Part shown: positions 7,016 through 23,331 of the stretch, piece after piece
Layout: the number at the start of each line of letters is the position of its first letter
Position numbering within the stretch: the first letter of the stretch is position 1
Source: Prasinococcaceae sp. CCMP 1430
Taxonomy: Eukaryota; Prasinodermophyta; Palmophyllophyceae; Prasinococcales; Prasinococcaceae
NCBI GenBank assembly: GCA_013416795.1
Contig: RQSC01000018.1
Span: 233,852-266,787, forward strand
Direction of reading: 5' to 3'
Length of the DNA stretch: 32,936 bases
Program-made: the position numbers and the translations under genes
Notes under the pieces: generated by a model
The model's database searches: none
The model's input: only the letters and a program-made list of their open reading frames with translations
What the model was told of the DNA's origin: nothing

Positions 7016-10000
7016 CTACCCTGAGCATGATGCGCGCTGTCGGAGCGTCCTCGTGCACCTCTCGCCATAAAATGCGCGGTACGGCTCCGGCAGCTTGGCC
7101 AGCGCATCGCCTGCCTGCCTCGCCAGGCTGGCGGCCGCCTCGGCACGCACCGGGTCGCGATTGCCGTACAGGTCCTTGGCAGCGAGCTCGGAAGGCGCAA
7201 GCCCGCGCCAAAACACATTGGCAGAGACCGAAAAGTCATCGAGGGTGGCCACCGCATGCACCCAGAGCGCCGGAATGTACAAAGTGTCGCCAGGTCTGAG
7301 CACGCATTCGAGTGCGCCCATGTGCTGAGCCGCAGCGAGCATGTCGGCCTCGTCCAGCAGCCGCGTCGAGCTGCTGTCGGGTGCGATGCCGAGCGAAGTG
7401 GCTGCCGCTGGTGGGAAGAGCAGCACTCGCTTGCTGCCACGCAGCTGCACGAGTGCGTTTTCCATCACGTCGAAGTGGGGCCACAGGCTGCACCCAGGCG
7501 AGGTCACGCGAAGTATGCTCGAGTGATACCTCTCCGGGGCGTACAGCTCGCTCGGGAGCGCAACGCCTTGAGCAAGATCCGGGAAATCCTTTTCCAGATT
7601 CGCCCTGTCGCTGCGGGAGTCGCGTCCAACCGAACGTAGGTACAAGCATTGCGTTGAACGTGCAGCGCCGCCATTGGGGGAGGGGATCGCCGCGGCCTTG
7701 CGGACAAAGTCGCCGAAGCCCATCCTGACGTACTTGAAGTTTTTCCCGACAAAGTCCAGCGCCGCAGTGTCGTTGCACTCGTGCACGGTGACACTCGCGC
7801 CGGCACACGCGCTTGCAGCCATCCTCTCGGGGCTCCATGCGTCCGGGCCAGCTGGCAGAACCTTAAGCCCGGTGATCACGGCAGGCACCATGCCGTGCCG
7901 CAGGTCGGCGCCTATAGTACACACATCTCGTTCGCCTGCCTCCAGAACCCTCACACGCGCAGGCAAGGGCTTTGGACAAATGTGTCGCGCAGCATCGGCA
8001 GCGCCCGCAACCCCGGGTGTCCGCAGCAGCGGCGCCATGCCTGCCTTCGGGTAGCAGGCCACATCGACAACGATGTGATCCACGCGCGGTGCGTACGACT
8101 TAACCCGCTCGATGTGCTGCACGATGCATCGCAGCGGTGGTCCGCCGCACGAGCGCGCCGTTGCAAGGCTCTCGAGCGACGCCGCGCAGCCTCGCGCCCA
8201 CGTCTGGGTCTCGTCGGTGCGCACGTTGGCGTGTACGTGCAGGATGCCGCCCTCGGGGCGCAGGGCCTCGACAGCTGTGTGCCAGGATTTCTCAGAAGTT
8301 GGTATCAGGCCGAGCAGGACACGATGCGCGACGCCTTTGGGCGCCATTTTGCGGTTGTCGCCCTCACGTACCTCGCAGCGCGCCTCGACACCGTTCCGGC
8401 GCAGGTTGTGACGGAGCGCCTGCGCGGCGGGCGCATTCCACTCGCACGCCACCAGATGCGCCACACCCGCTCGCCGTAGCAGCGGTATGGTAAAGTATCC
8501 GATGCCTGCAAAGAGGTCTACCACAGTTTCGCCCCGCGCATGCACGTCGCCCATGCGTCGCTTCTCCGTCCCATTTCCGGACGAGTACATGACCTGCGTC
8601 ACGTCCAGGCCGTACACCACGCCGTTGTCGCGCACCTCCGTCCAGCCTCCGGATGCGGCCGCGCCCGAACGTGCGTACAGGATCGCGGCGCGGCTGTGGC
8701 GCTTCTCGCTGGCGTCAATCTCCGCCTGGCGCGCGAGGCGATTGCAGCCCAGTGCGCGCGCGACGACCTCCCAAATCGAGGGGGGTGCGTCCACGCCAGC
8801 TGTGGCAGCCGCCTCGATGTAGGGAGCCCACTCTTCGGCGGTGAATGCGCGCTGACTGAGCATGGCCACGTCGCCCAGCATCTCCCAACGCAGCGCTTTC
8901 GCCTCGGCGGCTGCGAGCGCATCGGCAGCCCGGGCGTCGAGAGATCGCGTGCCTGCGGTGGTTGCGGCGCGCAGGTAGTCGCACAAGCCCACGCGCAGGG
9001 CATCGCGCGGCGTGAGCGATGTGCGAGTGAGCACAGCGCTCCGGCCGCCGTCGCCCTGGCCGCCCTCAACCCCGAACTCCTCATCGCGCACAACCCGCGC
9101 CTCGGAAACTCTGTCGAGAAGGCCGATCGCGGCAGCGAGTATCTGAAGGACGCGCACGTCGGCGTCGGATTCATCACTGCCATCGGCTGCCACGGCAAGC
9201 TCGCCATAGGTACTCGCCCCGGAGGCGGCCGAGCCAAGCACACCAACAGCGGCTGCGTGTACGATGGGCAAGACGACCTCGGTTTCTGTCACGGGTACGC
9301 GCATCGAGCGGTCAAGGAGCTTGGAGGACTTGAGCGCATCCTTCCACGCCTTGGCGCAGCGCTTGCGCACCGCGAGCGCCGCAGGCGGGGCGAGCGCGCA
9401 CTGCGCGCTCACGTCGGTGGCGGGGGCGCCATCAGTGACGTTGAGCGCACCGAGCGCTGCAGGTATGTCGGAGCAGGTGGGAGCGTAGACACATGTGAGG
9501 TGGTCGAAGGCCTTCTCGAACCGCTCGATGCGCGCCCAGTTGTCGTGCATCTTGCCGTTAGATAGCCGCACGAGCGTGCGCAAGTACCGGTCGGACACAA
9601 GTAGCTCGCCGTTGAGCGCGACAGGCACCTCGAGGCGCACCGAGCAGCGCACGCTGCAAACGTGGCGCTTGTTGGAGGGCGCAATGCCGGACTCCCGCAG
9701 GCCAGCGCCGACGGCCGCCGCCACGAGCGCAGCGGCGGCTTGTGCAGAGCGGCACTCGACGGCGAGGATGAAGGGCTCGAAGCGCAGCGTCAGCGGCCCC
9801 GCGTGCGGCGAGGTATCGCGCGCGCAAGAGGCGGCTCTCACCACGGCCTCGGCGTCGGCGAGGCCGTGCTCGAGGTAGAGCCACTCGCCGCCGCCACGCT
9901 TGCGCTTTGGGTCGAAGTCGGTCTCGTCGCCGCCGTCGCCGCCAGGGGCGCGCGGCTCCTGGAAGAGCGCGAGCCTGCCAGAGCAGCTCGAGGTTGTGTA

Positions 10001-10189
10001 GTAGTCTTGCGAGGAGTTCACGCGCGCACAGAGCTCTTCCACGGGCGCGTCCACGCACCCCTTGCGACTACGGTCGACGCGCGCCGCTCCGTAGAGCGCC
10101 GTCATCGCTGCTGCGCGTCGCTGCTCAAACGCGGTGCCGCCGCCGCCGCCGCCGCCGCCGCATGCTGCCGCCGGCGTTGCCGCGACCAT
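7016..10189 (-). CDS. Wybutosine-synthesis fusion: TYW3 + TYW2 + JmjC (TYW5-like)
   Basis: 1057 residues in one uninterrupted frame from ATG at 10189. Residues about 21-230 match TYW3, the SAM-dependent methyltransferase of the yW pathway (KGCVDAP, SSQDYYTTSSCSGR, GEWLYLEHG, FEPFILAVEC, NKRHVCSV, SNGKMHDNWARIERF). Residues about 280-710 match TYW2/Trm12, the aminocarboxypropyl transferase (DVTQVMYSSGN, DLFAGIGYFTIPL, ACEWNAPAAQALRHNLRRNG, HRVLLGLIPTSEKSW). Residues about 760-1000 are a JmjC fold with Fe(II) ligands H905, D907 and H978 and a likely 2-oxoglutarate Lys at 920, ending SVSANVFWRG as in TYW5, the wybutosine hydroxylase. TYW1 and the TYW4 methyltransferase are not in the window. Substrate is tRNA-Phe position 37; action in the cytosol is inferred. 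The poly-Gly near the N-terminus comes from a GCC microsatellite. The internal Met at residue 29 is an alternative start. Confidence 0.93.
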   Translation of the reverse strand: MVAATPAAACGGGGGGGGTAFEQRRAAAMTALYGAARVDRSRKGCVDAPVEELCARVNSSQDYYTTSSCSGRLALFQEPRAPGGDGGDETDFDPKRKRGGGEWLYLEHGLADAEAVVRAASCARDTSPHAGPLTLRFEPFILAVECRSAQAAAALVAAAVGAGLRESGIAPSNKRHVCSVRCSVRLEVPVALNGELLVSDRYLRTLVRLSNGKMHDNWARIERFEKAFDHLTCVYAPTCSDIPAALGALNVTDGAPATDVSAQCALAPPAALAVRKRCAKAWKDALKSSKLLDRSMRVPVTETEVVLPIVHAAAVGVLGSAASGASTYGELAVAADGSDESDADVRVLQILAAAIGLLDRVSEARVVRDEEFGVEGGQGDGGRSAVLTRTSLTPRDALRVGLCDYLRAATTAGTRSLDARAADALAAAEAKALRWEMLGDVAMLSQRAFTAEEWAPYIEAAATAGVDAPPSIWEVVARALGCNRLARQAEIDASEKRHSRAAILYARSGAAASGGWTEVRDNGVVYGLDVTQVMYSSGNGTEKRRMGDVHARGETVVDLFAGIGYFTIPLLRRAGVAHLVACEWNAPAAQALRHNLRRNGVEARCEVREGDNRKMAPKGVAHRVLLGLIPTSEKSWHTAVEALRPEGGILHVHANVRTDETQTWARGCAASLESLATARSCGGPPLRCIVQHIERVKSYAPRVDHIVVDVACYPKAGMAPLLRTPGVAGAADAARHICPKPLPARVRVLEAGERDVCTIGADLRHGMVPAVITGLKVLPAGPDAWSPERMAASACAGASVTVHECNDTAALDFVGKNFKYVRMGFGDFVRKAAAIPSPNGGAARSTQCLYLRSVGRDSRSDRANLEKDFPDLAQGVALPSELYAPERYHSSILRVTSPGCSLWPHFDVMENALVQLRGSKRVLLFPPAAATSLGIAPDSSSTRLLDEADMLAAAQHMGALECVLRPGDTLYIPALWVHAVATLDDFSVSANVFWRGLAPSELAAKDLYGNRDPVRAEAAASLARQAGDALAKLPEPYRAFYGERCTRTLRQRASCSG
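10136..10160. repeat. GCC trinucleotide microsatellite
   Basis: About eight GCC units, read on the minus strand as the poly-Gly run at residues 11-18 of the TYW fusion protein. Confidence 0.85.
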
Positions 10190-14949: not shown

Positions 14950-17640
14950 TTACTCCACGCCAGGGACGTCTACGGCGCCGCGCTCCTTGTCTCCCTCGTC
15001 TCCTATCGCCGCCTCGGGCGCGTCGCTCAGGACTCGCACGAGGGTCTCGAGCATGGCGGTGCCGCCGGCGTCGGCTGCGGTCCGAAAGTCGCACCCCGCG
15101 GGCGTCTCCCGTGACCAGTTCATGCTGGCGATTGTGATGTCGTCCGGGCAGCCACGATTGGCGCGCCGCACGCTGGCGAGGTAGGCCAAGTGAGCAGCGG
15201 CTCCTTTGGCCTTGACGCGCCGCACCGCTGCGGCAACCTCGGAGTCTTTGGCGACGTCCCAGAGGCCGTCCGACGCGACCACTAGCTGGGCCCAACCCAC
15301 CGCGGGAGGCAGCCTGCCCAGGTCGACCTGGCACACGTGTGGCGTGCCCATGACGCAGGCGTGCGCACGCGCATCACCCAGCGAGCGGCTCACGGCGAGG
15401 CCCCCGGGGTACACGCGCAGCGGCCCGACCAGCATGCCCGTGGAGCGCTCCTGTATGCGTCCCACGACAGCCCCGGCGGCCCTGACGCGGCGGACCTCTG
15501 ACTGCGAGTCTTCCGGGCGATGGTCCACAGAGAGGCGCACGTGCGCGGGTACGATGCCCTTGAAGAGGCCCGAGACGGCGCTGCCGCACTTCCCCCCGCT
15601 GCCTGGCCCAGCGCCCTCGTGCACCTCGGGCGTGATCAGTACGCACCTCGAGTCGCCCGCGTTGGCGACTGTGACAACGTCGCCGACAATCACCACCACT
15701 GTAGCGGTAGCCCCCGCTTTGACGCACGCGGCCTTGATCTCGGCGTCGAGTCGCTCCATGGCAGAGGTCAAAGCCGCGGGAAGAGCTGCCACGAGCGCCC
15801 CATCGGTCGTCGGCGACGCGCCTACTACGGGCGCCAGCGCGTCGAGCAGTGCAACCGGAAGGCGTTGGCGCGCCATCTCGGCTCCCTCGGCGCCACCGTG
15901 CCCGTCAAAAACACAGAACAGCCGCGCGCCCTTGAGCGCGCTCGCCTCGAGCTCTTCGTCGCTGAGGGTGCTGCGCCATTCGAGGTAAGTGCCGCCCACA
16001 CCGCTTTTGGCCGCGCGCCTCCCCGAGGGCAGCACCAGCACGCGGTCCTCTCCCTTGGCACACCTGGCGTGCACACGCCAGTCGATCGTCCAGGGGCCAT
16101 TGACTGGCGTGTCCGTTGAGCGGCGTGGGTGCGTGAACGAAATCATCTCGTCGCAGCTGCCGGGGGGCGCTGTGAGAGAACCCCCTGTTGCGGCGCTGCT
16201 GTGGCCCATGGCGGCCCGCTTGGCGTCGCATCTCCCCGCTGCCACGGCGCGCCGCAGGCGCAGCCTGGCTCTCGCTCCTCTCGCCGCCAATCTGGCCCAA
16301 GCAAGGCGAAGGCGCGCTCCAGCGAGCTCCCCACTCGTCATACCGGTGGAGACGTACTTGAACACTGGCTTGACGCTGGTCAGCAGGTTCGCGGGATTGT
16401 CCTCGATCCCGTCCCCTGTGTCGCGCGCCGCGCCCCCACGCGCCGAGCCCTCCCTTGCGAGCGAGTGCAGGTTCATCAGGAGCGCAACGATGTCCTCGCG
16501 CTCCATGATGCCGACGCGCTCTGTTGCACTCTCGAGCTCTTCATTCCCGGCTGCGCTGGCGGCGGCTCCTTGGCCTGGCGCGGTGTCCATGCCGCCAGAG
16601 CTGGGGGGCGCGCTCGCGAGCCAATCGACCGCCCAGAAGTAGCCCCCGACCACACCCATCGCCGTCACCAGCACCACTAGTGCTAGCGCCAGCCCCCCGA
16701 GGGCGCGCCACCCTACCGCGCTCGTCGCGTTTGCAGCGCCCGCGCCGTACACGACCCCCAAAAGCCCATTGTCGGTGACGGTGACCCCAAAGATCAAGCC
16801 TACGAGCGCACCCACACCGTGCACGGCGATGGTGTTGAGTGCATCATCGATGCGCACGTTGGCGAGCGCGAGAGTGGCGGCCACGAAGCCCAGCCCTGCA
16901 CAGGCTCCAATGAGCGCGGCCACATGCAGGTCCACGGTGCCGGCGACTGCAGTGGCCGCCGCAGCGCCTGCGAGTGCCCCGCGCACGGCCGTGTAAGGCG
17001 CTAACACGCCGAAGCCTCGTCCGCGGTGCCACGAGACCACGGACACGGCGGCGCACGCTACAAGCGCGCCCGTGGCGGGCGCCATGACCAGCGCGGCTGT
17101 TGCGGCGCCGACAACGTCCGCAGAGCCCATTGTACCGCCTGCGACGAGAGCCCACGGTACCGCGAGCGCACCGCTCAGCAGCAAGCCCACGAGCAGCACG
17201 AGCGCGCTCACCCCACCGAGGCCGTCATTCGAGCCCTCGAGGCCGCTCGCAGGAGCGTCTTCATCACCGGTGCCCCTGGGCGCCTCTTCCTTCGAGGCGG
17301 CCGGCCTTGCAAAGCGCCGCCGGCCGCGCATGTCGCGGCGCGATCCACGCACCAGTGCCATCGCCAGCACGGCCGACCCCGCGGCGAGGTGGGTGCATGC
17401 CGCACCCCCTACGTCGAGCGCGCCCGTGGCTGCCAGCCCCCCCCCGCCACTTGCGCCGGGGGCGAGCGCGCCCCCGTGGGACCATGCGACGCGCATCGCC
17501 ACAGGGCTCACCACGCCACCGATGAGCGCGCCCAGCGAGGCGCTCGAGAGCATGGTGGGCGCGCGGTCCCCCGCCCCGGCAGACGCGACTGCCGCTGCCA
17601 ACGCCGCCAACGCGGCCAGGTGCGCGCGCGCCAGCTCCAT
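14950..17640 (-). CDS. Ammonium-transporter-like membrane domain fused to a PP2C protein phosphatase
   Basis: One open frame; counted from the first ATG (17640) it has 896 residues. Residues about 1-345 resemble the later part of Amt/Rh channels: W53 in VAWSHGG, D76, first pore His H84 (GGAACTHLAAGS), and a C-terminal half with RIDDALNTIAVHGVGALVG containing the second pore His H274. The TM1-TM2 signatures are absent and the usual WFxFN block is replaced by LLLSGALAV. After a linker of about 150 residues comes PP2C (about 498-842): KGED (531-532), VFDGHGG with D579, VANAGDSR with D663, LSVDHRPED, GGLAVSRSLGD, VASDGLWDV with D791, and CPDDITI with D833/D834. All expected metal ligands are present. 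The frame stays open 5' to about 18010 without an ATG and adds one hydrophobic segment (VVAIVAAVVAFAAW), so an upstream exon is possible. It faces away from the AMT gene. Confidence 0.85.
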   Translation of the reverse strand: MELARAHLAALAALAAAVASAGAGDRAPTMLSSASLGALIGGVVSPVAMRVAWSHGGALAPGASGGGGLAATGALDVGGAACTHLAAGSAVLAMALVRGSRRDMRGRRRFARPAASKEEAPRGTGDEDAPASGLEGSNDGLGGVSALVLLVGLLLSGALAVPWALVAGGTMGSADVVGAATAALVMAPATGALVACAAVSVVSWHRGRGFGVLAPYTAVRGALAGAAAATAVAGTVDLHVAALIGACAGLGFVAATLALANVRIDDALNTIAVHGVGALVGLIFGVTVTDNGLLGVVYGAGAANATSAVGWRALGGLALALVVLVTAMGVVGGYFWAVDWLASAPPSSGGMDTAPGQGAAASAAGNEELESATERVGIMEREDIVALLMNLHSLAREGSARGGAARDTGDGIEDNPANLLTSVKPVFKYVSTGMTSGELAGARLRLAWARLAARGARARLRLRRAVAAGRCDAKRAAMGHSSAATGGSLTAPPGSCDEMISFTHPRRSTDTPVNGPWTIDWRVHARCAKGEDRVLVLPSGRRAAKSGVGGTYLEWRSTLSDEELEASALKGARLFCVFDGHGGAEGAEMARQRLPVALLDALAPVVGASPTTDGALVAALPAALTSAMERLDAEIKAACVKAGATATVVVIVGDVVTVANAGDSRCVLITPEVHEGAGPGSGGKCGSAVSGLFKGIVPAHVRLSVDHRPEDSQSEVRRVRAAGAVVGRIQERSTGMLVGPLRVYPGGLAVSRSLGDARAHACVMGTPHVCQVDLGRLPPAVGWAQLVVASDGLWDVAKDSEVAAAVRRVKAKGAAAHLAYLASVRRANRGCPDDITIASMNWSRETPAGCDFRTAADAGGTAMLETLVRVLSDAPEAAIGDEGDKERGAVDVPGVE

Positions 17641-18658
17641 TTCGCCGCCCCCGCCTTCGATCGCACCGAGCCCCGTGGCGCCTCCCGCAGCAACCTGAGC
17701 TGCTTCACCCGCTACGCGCCAACCCCACGCTGCGAAAGCGACCACGGCCGCAACGATGGCCACGACCGCGCGCCCTGCCTGCGCACCCGCGCCGCCCCCC
17801 GCCTGCACGCTGCCCGCGGCGCCCCCTCCGGCGCCGCACCCCCTCTGCCTTTGCTGCCGACGGCGGCCGTTGCGGAGGCGGCTCTGCGAGCCCAGGCGCT
17901 GGCTCTGGCGCCGCAGCCGCCGCAGCGGCGTGCTCTTCACCGTGACCTCCCGGAGCAGGAGGAAAGCGCGCGCCCGCCGCGCCCCGGGGAACGCAGCACA
18001 GACCCCTCATCCGGGCGGGGCCGGGACGGCGCCGCGCCGCTCGGCCAACCGAACCGAATCGAACCAACCAGAAACGAGCAGCCCCTCTCGCAACTCAAGC
18101 ACAGTCGTATCCTCGCGCCCATATGCGCCGCACGGCACGGTCGGACGGCCGAACCGTACGTGGGTACATTCAGTTAAACTGACTGTGTGGGTTCAACTGA
18201 CTGTGTGGTCGGGCTCTCCCGTTCCAAAAGGCGCAGCCCACATGATGGGGCCTGTTCCCCGGCGGACCTCTCGCGAGGGGGCACCGGGCCAGGTCAGCGG
18301 CAGGTGCGCGCGGTCCCTCCACCGCGGGGCGCCCGTGCGGGGCCTCGGGCGCCCGCGCGCATGCTCTGCACGCAGCATTCGGTTGGTCAACGCGCGGGGG
18401 CGCTGGGGCTCGGGTTGCGGCCCGGCAAATAATACGACGCCGCGGTGGCCCCACTCGCGGTGCCGCGCCACTTTGCGCCCCCGCCGCACCGCCACCCTGC
18501 GCCGCAGAGGCGCAGAGGCGGCAGCGGCGGTCGCTGCCGGGGGGAGGGGTCTGCGCGAAAGCTGCAGGGCAGAGCGGCGGCTCGTGCGAGGCGCGTTCAC
18601 GAGCGCGCGCGCCCACTGCTGGCGGGGCGGGGTGGTGGGACGCGCGCGGGCAGCGGCG
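17641..18658. promoter_or_regulatory. Control region shared by Amt-PP2C (-) and AMT (+)
   Basis: About 1 kb between the two ATGs. The part next to 17640 continues the Amt-PP2C frame and may be coding (to about 17850 or 18010). A second minus-strand frame from ATG 18067 (MRGLCCVPRG..., then an Ala/Pro-rich stretch) could be its true first exon. The central part, about 18070-18240, is less GC-rich and holds an 18-base tandem repeat. Promoter function is inferred from the head-to-head layout. Confidence 0.5.
18173..18208. repeat. 18-base tandem repeat in the AMT / Amt-PP2C control region
   Basis: GTTAAACTGACTGTGTGG at 18173-18190 is followed directly by the same 18-mer with one change (A to C at the fourth base) at 18191-18208. 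It lies about 450 bases upstream of the AMT start and could be a paired factor-binding site. Confidence 0.8.
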
Positions 18659-20464
18659 ATGGCAGGCGAGCTTGACGTGCTGGCGGCGCGCGTGACCGAG
18701 GCGGAGCGCGCCGCCAATGCCCTCTTCATGGCGACGGGGGTCGCGCTCGTGATGCTGATGCAGGCGGGCTTCGGCGCGCTGGAGGTGGGGGCGGTGCGTA
18801 CCAAGAACACGCGCTCACTGATGCTCAAGAACGTGATTGACTTCAGCGTCGGCACGATCATGTTCTGGCTGGTGGGGTACGGCGTGGCCTTCCCCGGCGC
18901 GGGCGCACGCGGCTTTGCGCTGCGCGGCAACGTTGCCGAGGTCGCGGGGGAGGGTGCGGGCGTCGCGGGCGAGGGCTCCTTCCTGCACTTCGCGCTCCTG
19001 CTTGCCTACGCGAGCACGAGCACCACCATCGTGTCGGGCGCGCTCGCGGAGCGCACTCGTCTGAGCTCCTACGTGGTCTTCGCGGCACTGGCCTTTCCTT
19101 TTATGTCGGGTTTGCCGATGCGGTGGACGTGGGGCCACGAGGGGTGGCTGAATGCGGCGGCGCGCGACGGGGGCGGGGCGGCGCCGCAGCCGCAGCTACT
19201 CGACGTGGGTGTGGTCGACTTCGCGGGCAGCGGCGTCGTCCACATGGTGGGCGGCGTCGCGGCGGGCGTGGGCTCGTGGATGGTGGGCCCGCGACTCGAC
19301 GAACGTGGGGTGGCACGCTTCGCAGAAGGCTGTCGCGAGGGCGACTTCATGCCTCACGCGCCCGCCTTAAGCACACTCGGCGCGCTGATCCTGTGGTTTT
19401 GCTGGTACGCCTTCAATGCCGCGTCCGCGCTTGGCGTGGTGGGCAGCGTGTCCGTGGTGGCTCGCGTGGTCGTGACCACCACCCTGGCGGCGGCGGCCTC
19501 AGGCTGCTCAGGCTTTGTCGCCTTCCTGGTCTTGCCCGCGCAAGTGCAACCCTTCGAGATGATCAATTGCCTGCTTGCCGGTCTCGTGGCGGTCACAGCG
19601 GGTTGCCCGGTGCTGAGCAACTGGGCGGCAGTCGTGGTGGGCGTGCTAGCGGCCGCTGTGTACTTGGGCTCCTCACGCCTCGCGCGCCGCATGGGCGTGG
19701 ATGACCCCGTGGACGCCGCTGCGCTCCACGGCTGCTGCGGCGCGCTGGGAGTGCTAATGGCAGGATTGCTTGCGGACGCCGAGCTGCTGGAGTCGACCTA
19801 CGGCGCTGGTGCGGGGCGTGCTGGCGCTTACGGCGTGCTCCTCGGCGGCGGGTGGCGACGGATGGGTGCGCAGGTGGTGGGCGTGTGTGTGTATGGCGCG
19901 TGGGGGCTGGCGCTCAGCCTCGTACTATTCGGCGCGCTCAAGCGCTCGCGTATCGTGTGGTGGGCACGCATGAAGAAAGCCGAACAGGACGGCCTCGACC
20001 TGTCGCTGTTCACGCGCGAGGAGCTGGTGGAGCGCTTCGGGAACGGCCTGCGCGTGTGCGCGCACGAGGAAATGAGCGGCATCGACGTGAGCTACCACGA
20101 CGGGCTGGCGTACCCGCCGTATCTCACGCCCTTCATCGACAGCATCAATGTGCTGCGCGAGCTGCAGCTGGCCTCGATGTGGGGCACCCTTCCCATACCA
20201 CCGAGCGCCCCGGGCGAAGAGAGCGGCAGAGACGGCAGCGAGGACGCCGACGACTCGTCCGCCAGGGGTCAGGCGGGGTCGACGGGCTTCGACCTGCTTC
20301 TTCGCCCCCGCGTGACCGACTCCAACAGGCAGCCCCTCGCAGCACGCGGCGCAGCGTACAAGCCCGACATGCGCCGCCGCTGGGGGAAGGGGGTGGCGGC
20401 CCCGCTCGCCGCGCCCACCGCCGCGGACGGTGCGCTCGCGCGCAAGACCGACGAGTCGCCGTGA
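18659..20464 (+). CDS. AMT-type ammonium transporter with long cytosolic C-terminus
   Basis: 601 residues from ATG at 18659 to TGA at 20462, no intron. About eleven hydrophobic segments cover residues 20-430. Conserved features are the first helix (ALFMATGVALVMLMQAGFGALE), the VRTKN turn and NVIDF after it, GALAERTRL, W158 in MRWTWGHEGWL, D187 and pore His H195 in VDFAGSGVVHMVGG, F252 in WFCWYAFNAASAL, and the second pore His H357 in DDPVDAAALHGCCG. AMT proteins carry ammonium across the plasma membrane. The tail after about 432 has the conserved EEMSGIDVSYHDGLAY region, which in plant AMT1 trimers gates neighbouring subunits and is controlled by phosphorylation, then roughly 110 residues rich in Ser, Asp and Arg. 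It is head to head with the Amt-PP2C gene. Confidence 0.95.
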   Translation: MAGELDVLAARVTEAERAANALFMATGVALVMLMQAGFGALEVGAVRTKNTRSLMLKNVIDFSVGTIMFWLVGYGVAFPGAGARGFALRGNVAEVAGEGAGVAGEGSFLHFALLLAYASTSTTIVSGALAERTRLSSYVVFAALAFPFMSGLPMRWTWGHEGWLNAAARDGGGAAPQPQLLDVGVVDFAGSGVVHMVGGVAAGVGSWMVGPRLDERGVARFAEGCREGDFMPHAPALSTLGALILWFCWYAFNAASALGVVGSVSVVARVVVTTTLAAAASGCSGFVAFLVLPAQVQPFEMINCLLAGLVAVTAGCPVLSNWAAVVVGVLAAAVYLGSSRLARRMGVDDPVDAAALHGCCGALGVLMAGLLADAELLESTYGAGAGRAGAYGVLLGGGWRRMGAQVVGVCVYGAWGLALSLVLFGALKRSRIVWWARMKKAEQDGLDLSLFTREELVERFGNGLRVCAHEEMSGIDVSYHDGLAYPPYLTPFIDSINVLRELQLASMWGTLPIPPSAPGEESGRDGSEDADDSSARGQAGSTGFDLLLRPRVTDSNRQPLAARGAAYKPDMRRRWGKGVAAPLAAPTAADGALARKTDESP

Positions 20465-21485: not shown

Positions 21486-21611
21486 GTATCGCAGGAGCAC
21501 GTCGGCGAGGCACCCGAGCCCCGAGCCCTGGGCCTTCTCCACCTCCATCTGCGCCATGATCTGCGCCACCACCTTGCGCGCGATCGCCTCGGTGTACCCC
21601 TCGAGCGTCAT
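21486..21611 (-). CDS. First exon of a Bromo_TP histone-fold protein (TAF8/TAF3-like), rest not found
   Basis: From ATG at 21611 the frame encodes 42 residues, ending LGCLADVLLRY just before a GTACGC donor at 21485. The pattern YTEAIARKVVAQIMAQM...GLGCLADVLLRY fits helices 1 and 2 of the bromodomain-associated histone fold in TFIID subunits TAF8 and TAF3 and in SPT7-like proteins. That fold normally continues with a third helix (IREIG...YAEL...). I could not find that helix downstream on the minus strand before the AMT gene; the frame runs instead into Arg-rich text and a stop at 21429. It may be the first exon of a gene with diverged later exons, or a fragment. The family call rests on a short match. 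Confidence 0.5.
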
Positions 21612-22230
21612 CGCACGCCGCGGGGAGCTCCCCCGCGCGCGCGCTCTGCCCCCCCACCCCCACCCGCACCCCGCTGCCGGGCGTGCTCGCGCACGCTTCG
21701 TGCGCCGGCGTTTCGCGCTCTCGGCGAGCGATACCAGCGGGGGACGCAAAGAAGTATCGAAGCACTGCGGCGAGACCAGAGCGGGTGCGCCGCGCGTCGG
21801 GAGCGGCGCGCGCCAGTGGCCGCGGTGGCGGGCGAGGCCCCCCCGCTCCCCCCCCTCCCAAACTCACCCACCTCCGTGCCTCGCAATGCTGCTGCCGGCG
21901 ACCCCGGCGGCCGGCGCGGCGCCGGCGCGAGGTGCGCAAAATTGGGCAGCGCGCGCGTGCCCGGCGCGAGCCCCGGAGGCGTGTTCGCTGAACACATCAA
22001 ATTCCCATGCGCACGACAAAAAGGCCCGCACCGCGCGACGGTTGCCCGATCCGCCCGTTTCGGTACGTGCGGATGTCAGCCGCACGGACGCGGCGGGGGG
22101 GTCCGCGCGCATTCGGCGGGGCGGCCGAGGCGTGCCACAGTGCACACGTAGCCACAGCCCGCGCATCCCCTCGCCTCACAACTGCCACGGTGTACACACG
22201 CAGGGCACACAAGCGACACTCGCGGTCATC
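21612..22230. promoter_or_regulatory. Intergenic region upstream of delta-carbonic anhydrase
   Basis: About 620 bases between the divergent histone-fold exon and the carbonic anhydrase start. GC-rich apart from AT-richer words near 21990-22020. Long open frames cross it but carry no recognisable protein text. CO2-responsive promoter elements cannot be assigned by eye. Confidence 0.35.
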
Positions 22231-23331
22231 ATGGGGCGCACGTCTGTCGCGACAGGCATGATCGGCATGGCGATGCTCTCGACGACCGGCACCAGCACTG
22301 CCCGTTCGCTCCTCGCGGTTGCTCCGAGCACGGCGGCTACCAATGGCAACCAGACGGCAGTAGCGGTCGCCGAGGCGGCGCTGTCGAGCGAGCACGGCAG
22401 CTCGCTCATGGGCACCAACGTGTGCGAGGGCAAGAAGCCACTCCACGCCGACGCCAACGCACAGGACGAGTACTTCAAGAACGTCGACTGCTTCGTCGAC
22501 ACCGTCATCCAGACGCTGGAGCAGGCCGGAGCCAATGTCACCGAGGGGTACAACGGCGAGCTCGACGTGGGCGACCGCGTGCCTATCACCGAGCCGTACT
22601 GGAAGGCGGGCCTGTGTCCGGTGAATGTGCACTGGCACTACGGCGCCGAGCACCTGTCGGTCGGTGAGTACGACGAGGCCGGCAAGGGACCCAAGCCCAT
22701 CGTGGACGACTCCACCCCCACCAACACCACCATTCTTTCAAAGGCAGGCGATGAGGACGTGCGCGAGGGCTTCCAGTGCCACCTTTACAACGAAAGTGAG
22801 AGCAGGTTCACCGCCGAGTACGACTGGAAGCACTGTGTGGGCATGCGCGTGGGGAAGACGTACGAGGTCCACTGGCCTCACAGCGCGGCGGGCGCCTGCG
22901 GCACGCCCAACCAGTACCAGACCCCTTTCTACGACGGCGTCTTCTGCACCGACGGCGTCATCTCGCTTGACCCGCTCAACACGTACCAGAAGATCGGCGT
23001 GCAGTCGCAGGTGTACACCATCGTCAACGACGAGACGTACTACTACCCCGACCTGATCCGCGGCATGATCGTAGACGGCGACTACGGCACGGACGTTGCT
23101 ATGTACACCGGTTCGACGACCGGCACGACGCGCGACAACGAGGTCTGCTCTCGCTTCACGCCGATCACCTGGCAGGTGGACCGCAAGTGTCACCTCATCT
23201 CGGCGTCGTCGTTCGATAAGATGTGCGCGGACATGAAGGCACAGCGTGACGACATGAGCAGTGATTTGTACGCCCACGGCTCTCGCGAGCTGGTGGCTGA
23301 CGAGCTGGCGGCGAACAACCATCAGGGTTAG
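22231..23331 (+). CDS. Delta-class carbonic anhydrase (TWCA1 type), secreted
   Basis: 366 residues from ATG at 22231, no intron. A hydrophobic N-terminus (TGMIGMAMLSTTGTSTARSL) looks like a signal sequence. The mature part carries the delta-CA hallmark NVHWHYGAEHLSVGEYD (H134, H136, H141 candidate zinc ligands), then GFQCHLY, DWKHC, TYEVHWPHSAAGACG (H214, H217), QTPFYDGVFC, VYTIVND, YYYPDLIRGMIV, YTGSTTGTTRDN, ITWQVDRKCHLISASSFDKM and a final DDMSSDLYAHGSRELV. This class was described from the diatom Thalassiosira weissflogii and occurs in haptophytes, dinoflagellates and some prasinophytes. It interconverts CO2 and bicarbonate, and a secreted form would supply CO2 at the cell surface for the carbon-concentrating mechanism. 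Conserved cysteines suit an extracellular protein. The ATG was chosen because a signal-like segment follows at once. Confidence 0.93.
   Translation: MGRTSVATGMIGMAMLSTTGTSTARSLLAVAPSTAATNGNQTAVAVAEAALSSEHGSSLMGTNVCEGKKPLHADANAQDEYFKNVDCFVDTVIQTLEQAGANVTEGYNGELDVGDRVPITEPYWKAGLCPVNVHWHYGAEHLSVGEYDEAGKGPKPIVDDSTPTNTTILSKAGDEDVREGFQCHLYNESESRFTAEYDWKHCVGMRVGKTYEVHWPHSAAGACGTPNQYQTPFYDGVFCTDGVISLDPLNTYQKIGVQSQVYTIVNDETYYYPDLIRGMIVDGDYGTDVAMYTGSTTGTTRDNEVCSRFTPITWQVDRKCHLISASSFDKMCADMKAQRDDMSSDLYAHGSRELVADELAANNHQG

Follow-up and report, generated by a model that had tools for sequence, protein, structure and literature searches.

An ammonium transporter-like domain joined to a PP2C phosphatase in an alga, probably a membrane-bound phosphatase regulating nitrogen uptake

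To our knowledge, the outputs of known ammonium transporter (Amt) fusions are kinases or nucleotide-signalling domains. The output of the bacterial Sd-Amt1 is a diguanylate cyclase. This Shewanella denitrificans protein (8qj3, 8qj4, 8qpf) is an Amt with a long C-terminal extension, and its deposited structures describe it as a receptor that has an ON and an OFF state. In the bacterial Ks-Amt5 of Kuenenia stuttgartiensis (6eu6), an Amt turned from transport carries a C-terminal phospho-signalling domain, a histidine kinase; transport is lost, and ammonium binding drives the kinase (PMC5764959). In plants, the clade A PP2C ABI1 binds AMT1s and has been proposed to keep them active (AMT1;1/AMT1;2, CIPK23; PMC9516733). 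ABI1 is a PP2C with a functional link to an Amt, but it is a separate soluble protein under ABA receptors and is not fused to an Amt.

In this study, we analysed a stretch of 32,936 nucleotides from Prasinococcaceae sp. CCMP 1430 (the window), in which an uninterrupted minus-strand frame (17940-14950, 996 codons from GTG 17940) encodes an Amt-like domain, a linker and a PP2C domain. As an initial annotation had claimed, both domains were found in a single frame and where it had placed them. The Pfam search that it proposed matched both in the order Amt then PP2C: PF00909 (E 2.6e-13, in two stretches; 49.9 bits, cut-off 23.2), then PF00481 (E 3.7e-30; 105.9 bits, cut-off 20.3). Frame length was weak evidence because the window, at ~70% GC, has long spurious frames, among them frames of 902 and 1197 codons. 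The commonness of such frames would suit an artefact, in which two adjacent genes were merged by a gene-model or assembly error. We consider this explanation hardly credible, since there is homology on both sides of the frame, the fusion gene contains no N in the window sequence, and a diverged second copy has the same architecture.

The second Amt-linker-PP2C copy was found on contig C101 (L016:5977-3209, minus strand) as one open frame of 1049 codons, and its PF00909 score was 92.6 bits. In an end-to-end alignment the two proteins were 41% identical, and identity by part was about 44-45% in the Amt, 47% in the PP2C and 22% in the linker. The differences between the copies lay mostly at third codon positions, and NG86 dN/dS was ~0.43 for the Amt and ~0.38 for the PP2C, with dS near saturation. 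The codon comparison indicates that both domains are under purifying selection, constraint on the Amt being almost as strong as on the PP2C (44% vs 47% identity, similar dN/dS). The linker (16060..16611, minus strand; ~180 residues, cytoplasmic by prediction) is weakly conserved; its alignment to the paralogue's open linker scored 49 vs 31 +/- 5 in shuffles, and 3 of 500 shuffles reached 49. An independent paralogue with the same domain order, a linker match and purifying selection on both domains makes an assembly join very unlikely. As read from the two frames, Amt and PP2C are parts of one polypeptide, as in Amt-fused sensor proteins. Genome-wide scans with both profiles (24.5 Mb, 145 contigs) found no third site with PF00909 and PF00481 in one frame.

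The PP2C domain (15112..16059, minus strand) contains the motifs KGED, FDGHGG, GDSR, ASDGLWD and PDDI. Its metal-ligand residues D581, D628-G629, D712, D840 and D883 are intact, which agrees with the initial annotation that the metal-binding Asp residues are all in place. In PPM1A, R33 is the phosphate-binding Arg; its equivalent is not clearly conserved here, and both copies have a Lys close to that position. Judged by its metal ligands, the domain is apparently catalytically complete and presumably an active phosphatase. A model of the PP2C made without an alignment was of low quality (pLDDT 41) and was set aside. The closest PDB relatives were plant clade A PP2Cs (E 4.6e-18), the group of ABI1. 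Within the genome, the nearest PP2C sequences after the paralogue were PP2C-kinase fusions on contigs C18 and C75, in which the PP2C is also fused, but to a protein kinase and with no Amt. Two PP2C-protein kinase fusions, each in one frame, were located at L012:1351-3393 (+) and L013:1-2652 (-). No relatives of the Amt-PP2C fusion were found among prokaryote genome contigs and viral contigs (both with short peptide patterns) or phage records, collections without eukaryotic genomes. The initial annotation knew of no described Amt-PP2C protein, and none was found in the literature searched, with eukaryotic proteomes outside the scope; the architecture is provisionally regarded as new.

The initial annotation gave an 896-residue product starting at ATG 17640. 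This first in-frame ATG is probably too late as a start because the TM2-equivalent helix (17707..17769, minus strand), where the region conserved with the paralogue begins, lies upstream of it. In the 39 aligned codons upstream of ATG 17640, amino-acid identity to the paralogue was 54%, and the two copies differed by 0.28/0.31/0.69 at codon positions 1/2/3. Just before TM2, the paralogue carries an ATG whose context is good, and the window gene has a GTG there (codon 17763-17761). A GTG start, a spliced start and a lost ATG are all possible for the window gene; enumeration of spliced upstream starts gave 170 formal GT-AG solutions, none of them compelling. Hydropathy revealed no TM1-like hydrophobic segment in any of the three minus-strand frames up to 19200, a range that takes in the upstream region shared with a divergent neighbouring gene (17788..18658). 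TM1 is missing in both paralogues as far as visible, which in the C101 copy means 528 bases upstream of its ATG, followed by N.

The Amt-like membrane domain (16612..17766, minus strand) was assigned to the PF00909 family by profile in both copies. In place of the 11-TM fold with 5+5 pseudo-symmetry, 10 long helices (TM2-TM11) were predicted by an AlphaFold2 model built from 15 aligned sequences (pTM 0.66, moderate pLDDT of 61). The best Foldseek matches to this model were all Amt/Mep/Rh proteins, including 6eu6 (Ks-Amt5) and 8qj3/8qj4 (Sd-Amt1). AmtB has an 11-TM, N-out, C-in topology (PMC10433425), and by analogy, with TM1 removed, the N- and C-termini of the fusion should both be cytosolic.

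Pore residues were assigned by alignment with the other Amts of the genome and by AmtB structure numbering. The register of TM6 was fixed by the paralogue, which is gap-free there, and the TM6 assignments in the window copy rest on it; a looser alignment puts a gap in TM6 of the window copy. The twin-His pair was present in both copies. In the window copy, His133 (17389..17391, minus strand; 945-aa numbering) and His323 (16819..16821, minus strand) align with AmtB H168 and H318; these are the two pore histidines that the initial annotation had recognised as H84 and H274, counted from ATG 17640. W148 and D160 (AmtB numbering) were also kept in both copies. The Phe gate F107/F215 was absent: L60 (17608-17610, minus strand) stands at F107 and Ser205 (17173..17175, minus strand) at F215, as in the paralogue. 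Near Ser205, L202 replaces W212, the Trp of the S2 site, and A209 replaces S219; the paralogue shares both changes. Half of the residues lining the pore are missing, and the S1 site (F107/W148/S219 with D160) is reduced to W148 and D160.

In AmtB, F215S abolishes transport and D160A is inactive, and F107A and S219A are tolerated (PMC10433425). Because F215 is Ser in the fusion, its Amt part is probably not a transporter. A fusion that still conducts ammonium and is regulated in cis by its PP2C would be in keeping with the retained twin-His and D160 and with the two tolerated substitutions. We regard it as very unlikely, given the missing TM1, the loss of W212, the effect of F215S and a linker without the classical AMT C-terminal motif. 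A plain membrane anchor, a degenerate Amt that localises the PP2C and senses nothing, would match the degenerate pore and the PF00909 score of just 49.9 bits in the window copy. This reading is rather improbable, since the Amt is nearly as constrained as the PP2C and the pore histidines were selectively kept.

The initial annotation had further suggested that the membrane part controls the phosphatase through its occupancy by substrate. The loss of TM1, the Phe gate, W212 and S219 weakens this suggestion and makes ammonium sensing via the canonical pore sites doubtful; ligand sensing with the retained twin-His, D160 and W148 is possible. In a receptor for ammonium, an ammonium analogue or pH, a ligand in the remodelled pore would move loop 5 or the linker and turn the PP2C on or off, in the manner of Amt-kinase and Amt-GGDEF sensors. 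This alternative stays alive because the twin-His, D160 and W148 were selectively retained in both diverged copies. Its nearest functional precedents, Ks-Amt5 and Sd-Amt1, are Amt domains turned sensors, and Ks-Amt5 lost transport yet retained binding (PMC5764959). However, Ks-Amt5, the sensor studied in most detail, keeps a complete Amt fold, the selectivity filter, the Phe gate and the His pair, whereas the loss of F107, W212, F215, S219 and TM1 has gutted the known S1/S2 sites of the fusion. We see such a receptor as a serious possibility, but one more probably wrong than right. The bolder proposal that eukaryotes have a family of receptor phosphatases responding to ammonium, in which a pore without the Phe gate would sense ammonium or protons through a D160/twin-His polar pathway and gate the PP2C directly, appears unlikely.

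A full-length Amt gene (18659..20464, plus strand; PF00909 E 6.3e-83) lies 0.9 kb from the fusion gene and is transcribed divergently. TM1 is present in its product, and all pore residues are kept save F107, which is Tyr. At the position of the AMT1 regulatory (inhibitory) C-terminal Thr it has Ser (GIDVSYHDG); the plant AMT1 phospho-Thr epitope is G-Nle-D-Nle-pT-RHGGFA (PMC9516733). By identity (28-29%), this neighbour was the closest Amt to the fusions, with C120 level for the paralogue, and the loop-5 form GPRxDxxGxxRF is common to the neighbour and the fusions. In the Amt tree the two fusion domains were joined (100/100) and the neighbour came next, on long branches that leave descent of the fusion Amt from the neighbour as only a hint. 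A homology between the C-terminal tail of the neighbour and the fusion linker, suspected by eye, was ruled out by shuffling.

Several other observations were made in the window and the genome. A 474-bp copy of window 18438-18911, 99.4% identical, was found on contig C71 near 337,000; it contains only the beginning of the neighbouring Amt gene with the DNA upstream of it, and arose either by recent partial duplication or as a duplicate in the assembly. On contig C54, a frame (L018:6547-7605, plus strand) joins part of a glutamate synthase central domain (PF04898, E 4e-30) directly to an AmtB-type Amt (PF00909 E 4.2e-53), whose TM6 is interrupted by an intron. Immediately upstream are a single N and a GC repeat, and the frame is either a fusion of an ammonium transporter with GOGAT or a chimera made in assembly. 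An exon-by-exon search for the PII protein (PF00543) as a candidate partner gave no match in the genome, and 13 of 14 control genomes were matched. Elsewhere in the window, a delta carbonic anhydrase was found at 21556-23331 (plus strand; PF10563, E 5.2e-45), and one frame at 7016-10189 (minus strand) combines TYW3, a TYW2-type methyltransferase and a cupin/JmjC domain, placing several wybutosine steps in one protein.

We propose that a non-conducting Amt-derived receptor or trimer partner tethers an active PP2C to the membrane, where it would most likely act on AMT transporters; we put the probability of this reading at about 0.45. The Amt-derived domain without TM1 and the Phe gate, probably non-conducting, would anchor the PP2C, which would lie in the cytosol at the end of the ~180-residue linker if the predicted 10-TM topology holds. 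The membrane part would most likely associate with working AMT subunits, for example those of the divergent neighbour, or with another membrane partner. The PP2C would then dephosphorylate the C-terminal regulatory Ser/Thr of the AMT, and uptake would stay active. The free PP2C ABI1 has been proposed to act so on plant AMT1s.

Such a partnership is consistent with the loss of F107, W212, F215 and S219 in both copies, the intact PP2C metal ligands, the 10-helix Amt/Mep/Rh-like model, the adjoining Amt, which is near-canonical and has Ser where AMT1s carry the Thr, and the binding and activation of AMT1s by ABI1. It must be set against the conservation of the twin-His, D160 and W148 in both copies, none of which a pure anchor needs, and against the direct dephosphorylation of AMTs by ABI1 being itself a proposal. 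The Amt model is also only moderate, and no Amt is known next to the C101 copy: the contig gave no other Amt match, and the DNA upstream of the paralogue reads N. A role as scaffold or trimer partner of working AMTs fits no less well than ligand sensing, and we slightly prefer it to a receptor because Ks-Amt5 keeps its pore motifs and the fusion Amt does not. These results suggest that the protein is probably a membrane-bound phosphatase regulating nitrogen uptake and not a working ammonium channel.

In a eukaryotic alga, a phosphatase as the output would give signalling of the opposite sign to that of known Amt fusions. The fusion would also unite in one protein what plants do with separate AMT1 and ABI1. 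If the receptor-phosphatase reading were true, a single protein would couple the dephosphorylation of proteins to external nitrogen. The two paralogues share their partial loss of pore residues and may serve as a natural experiment that shows which residues of an Amt are required for something beyond transport.
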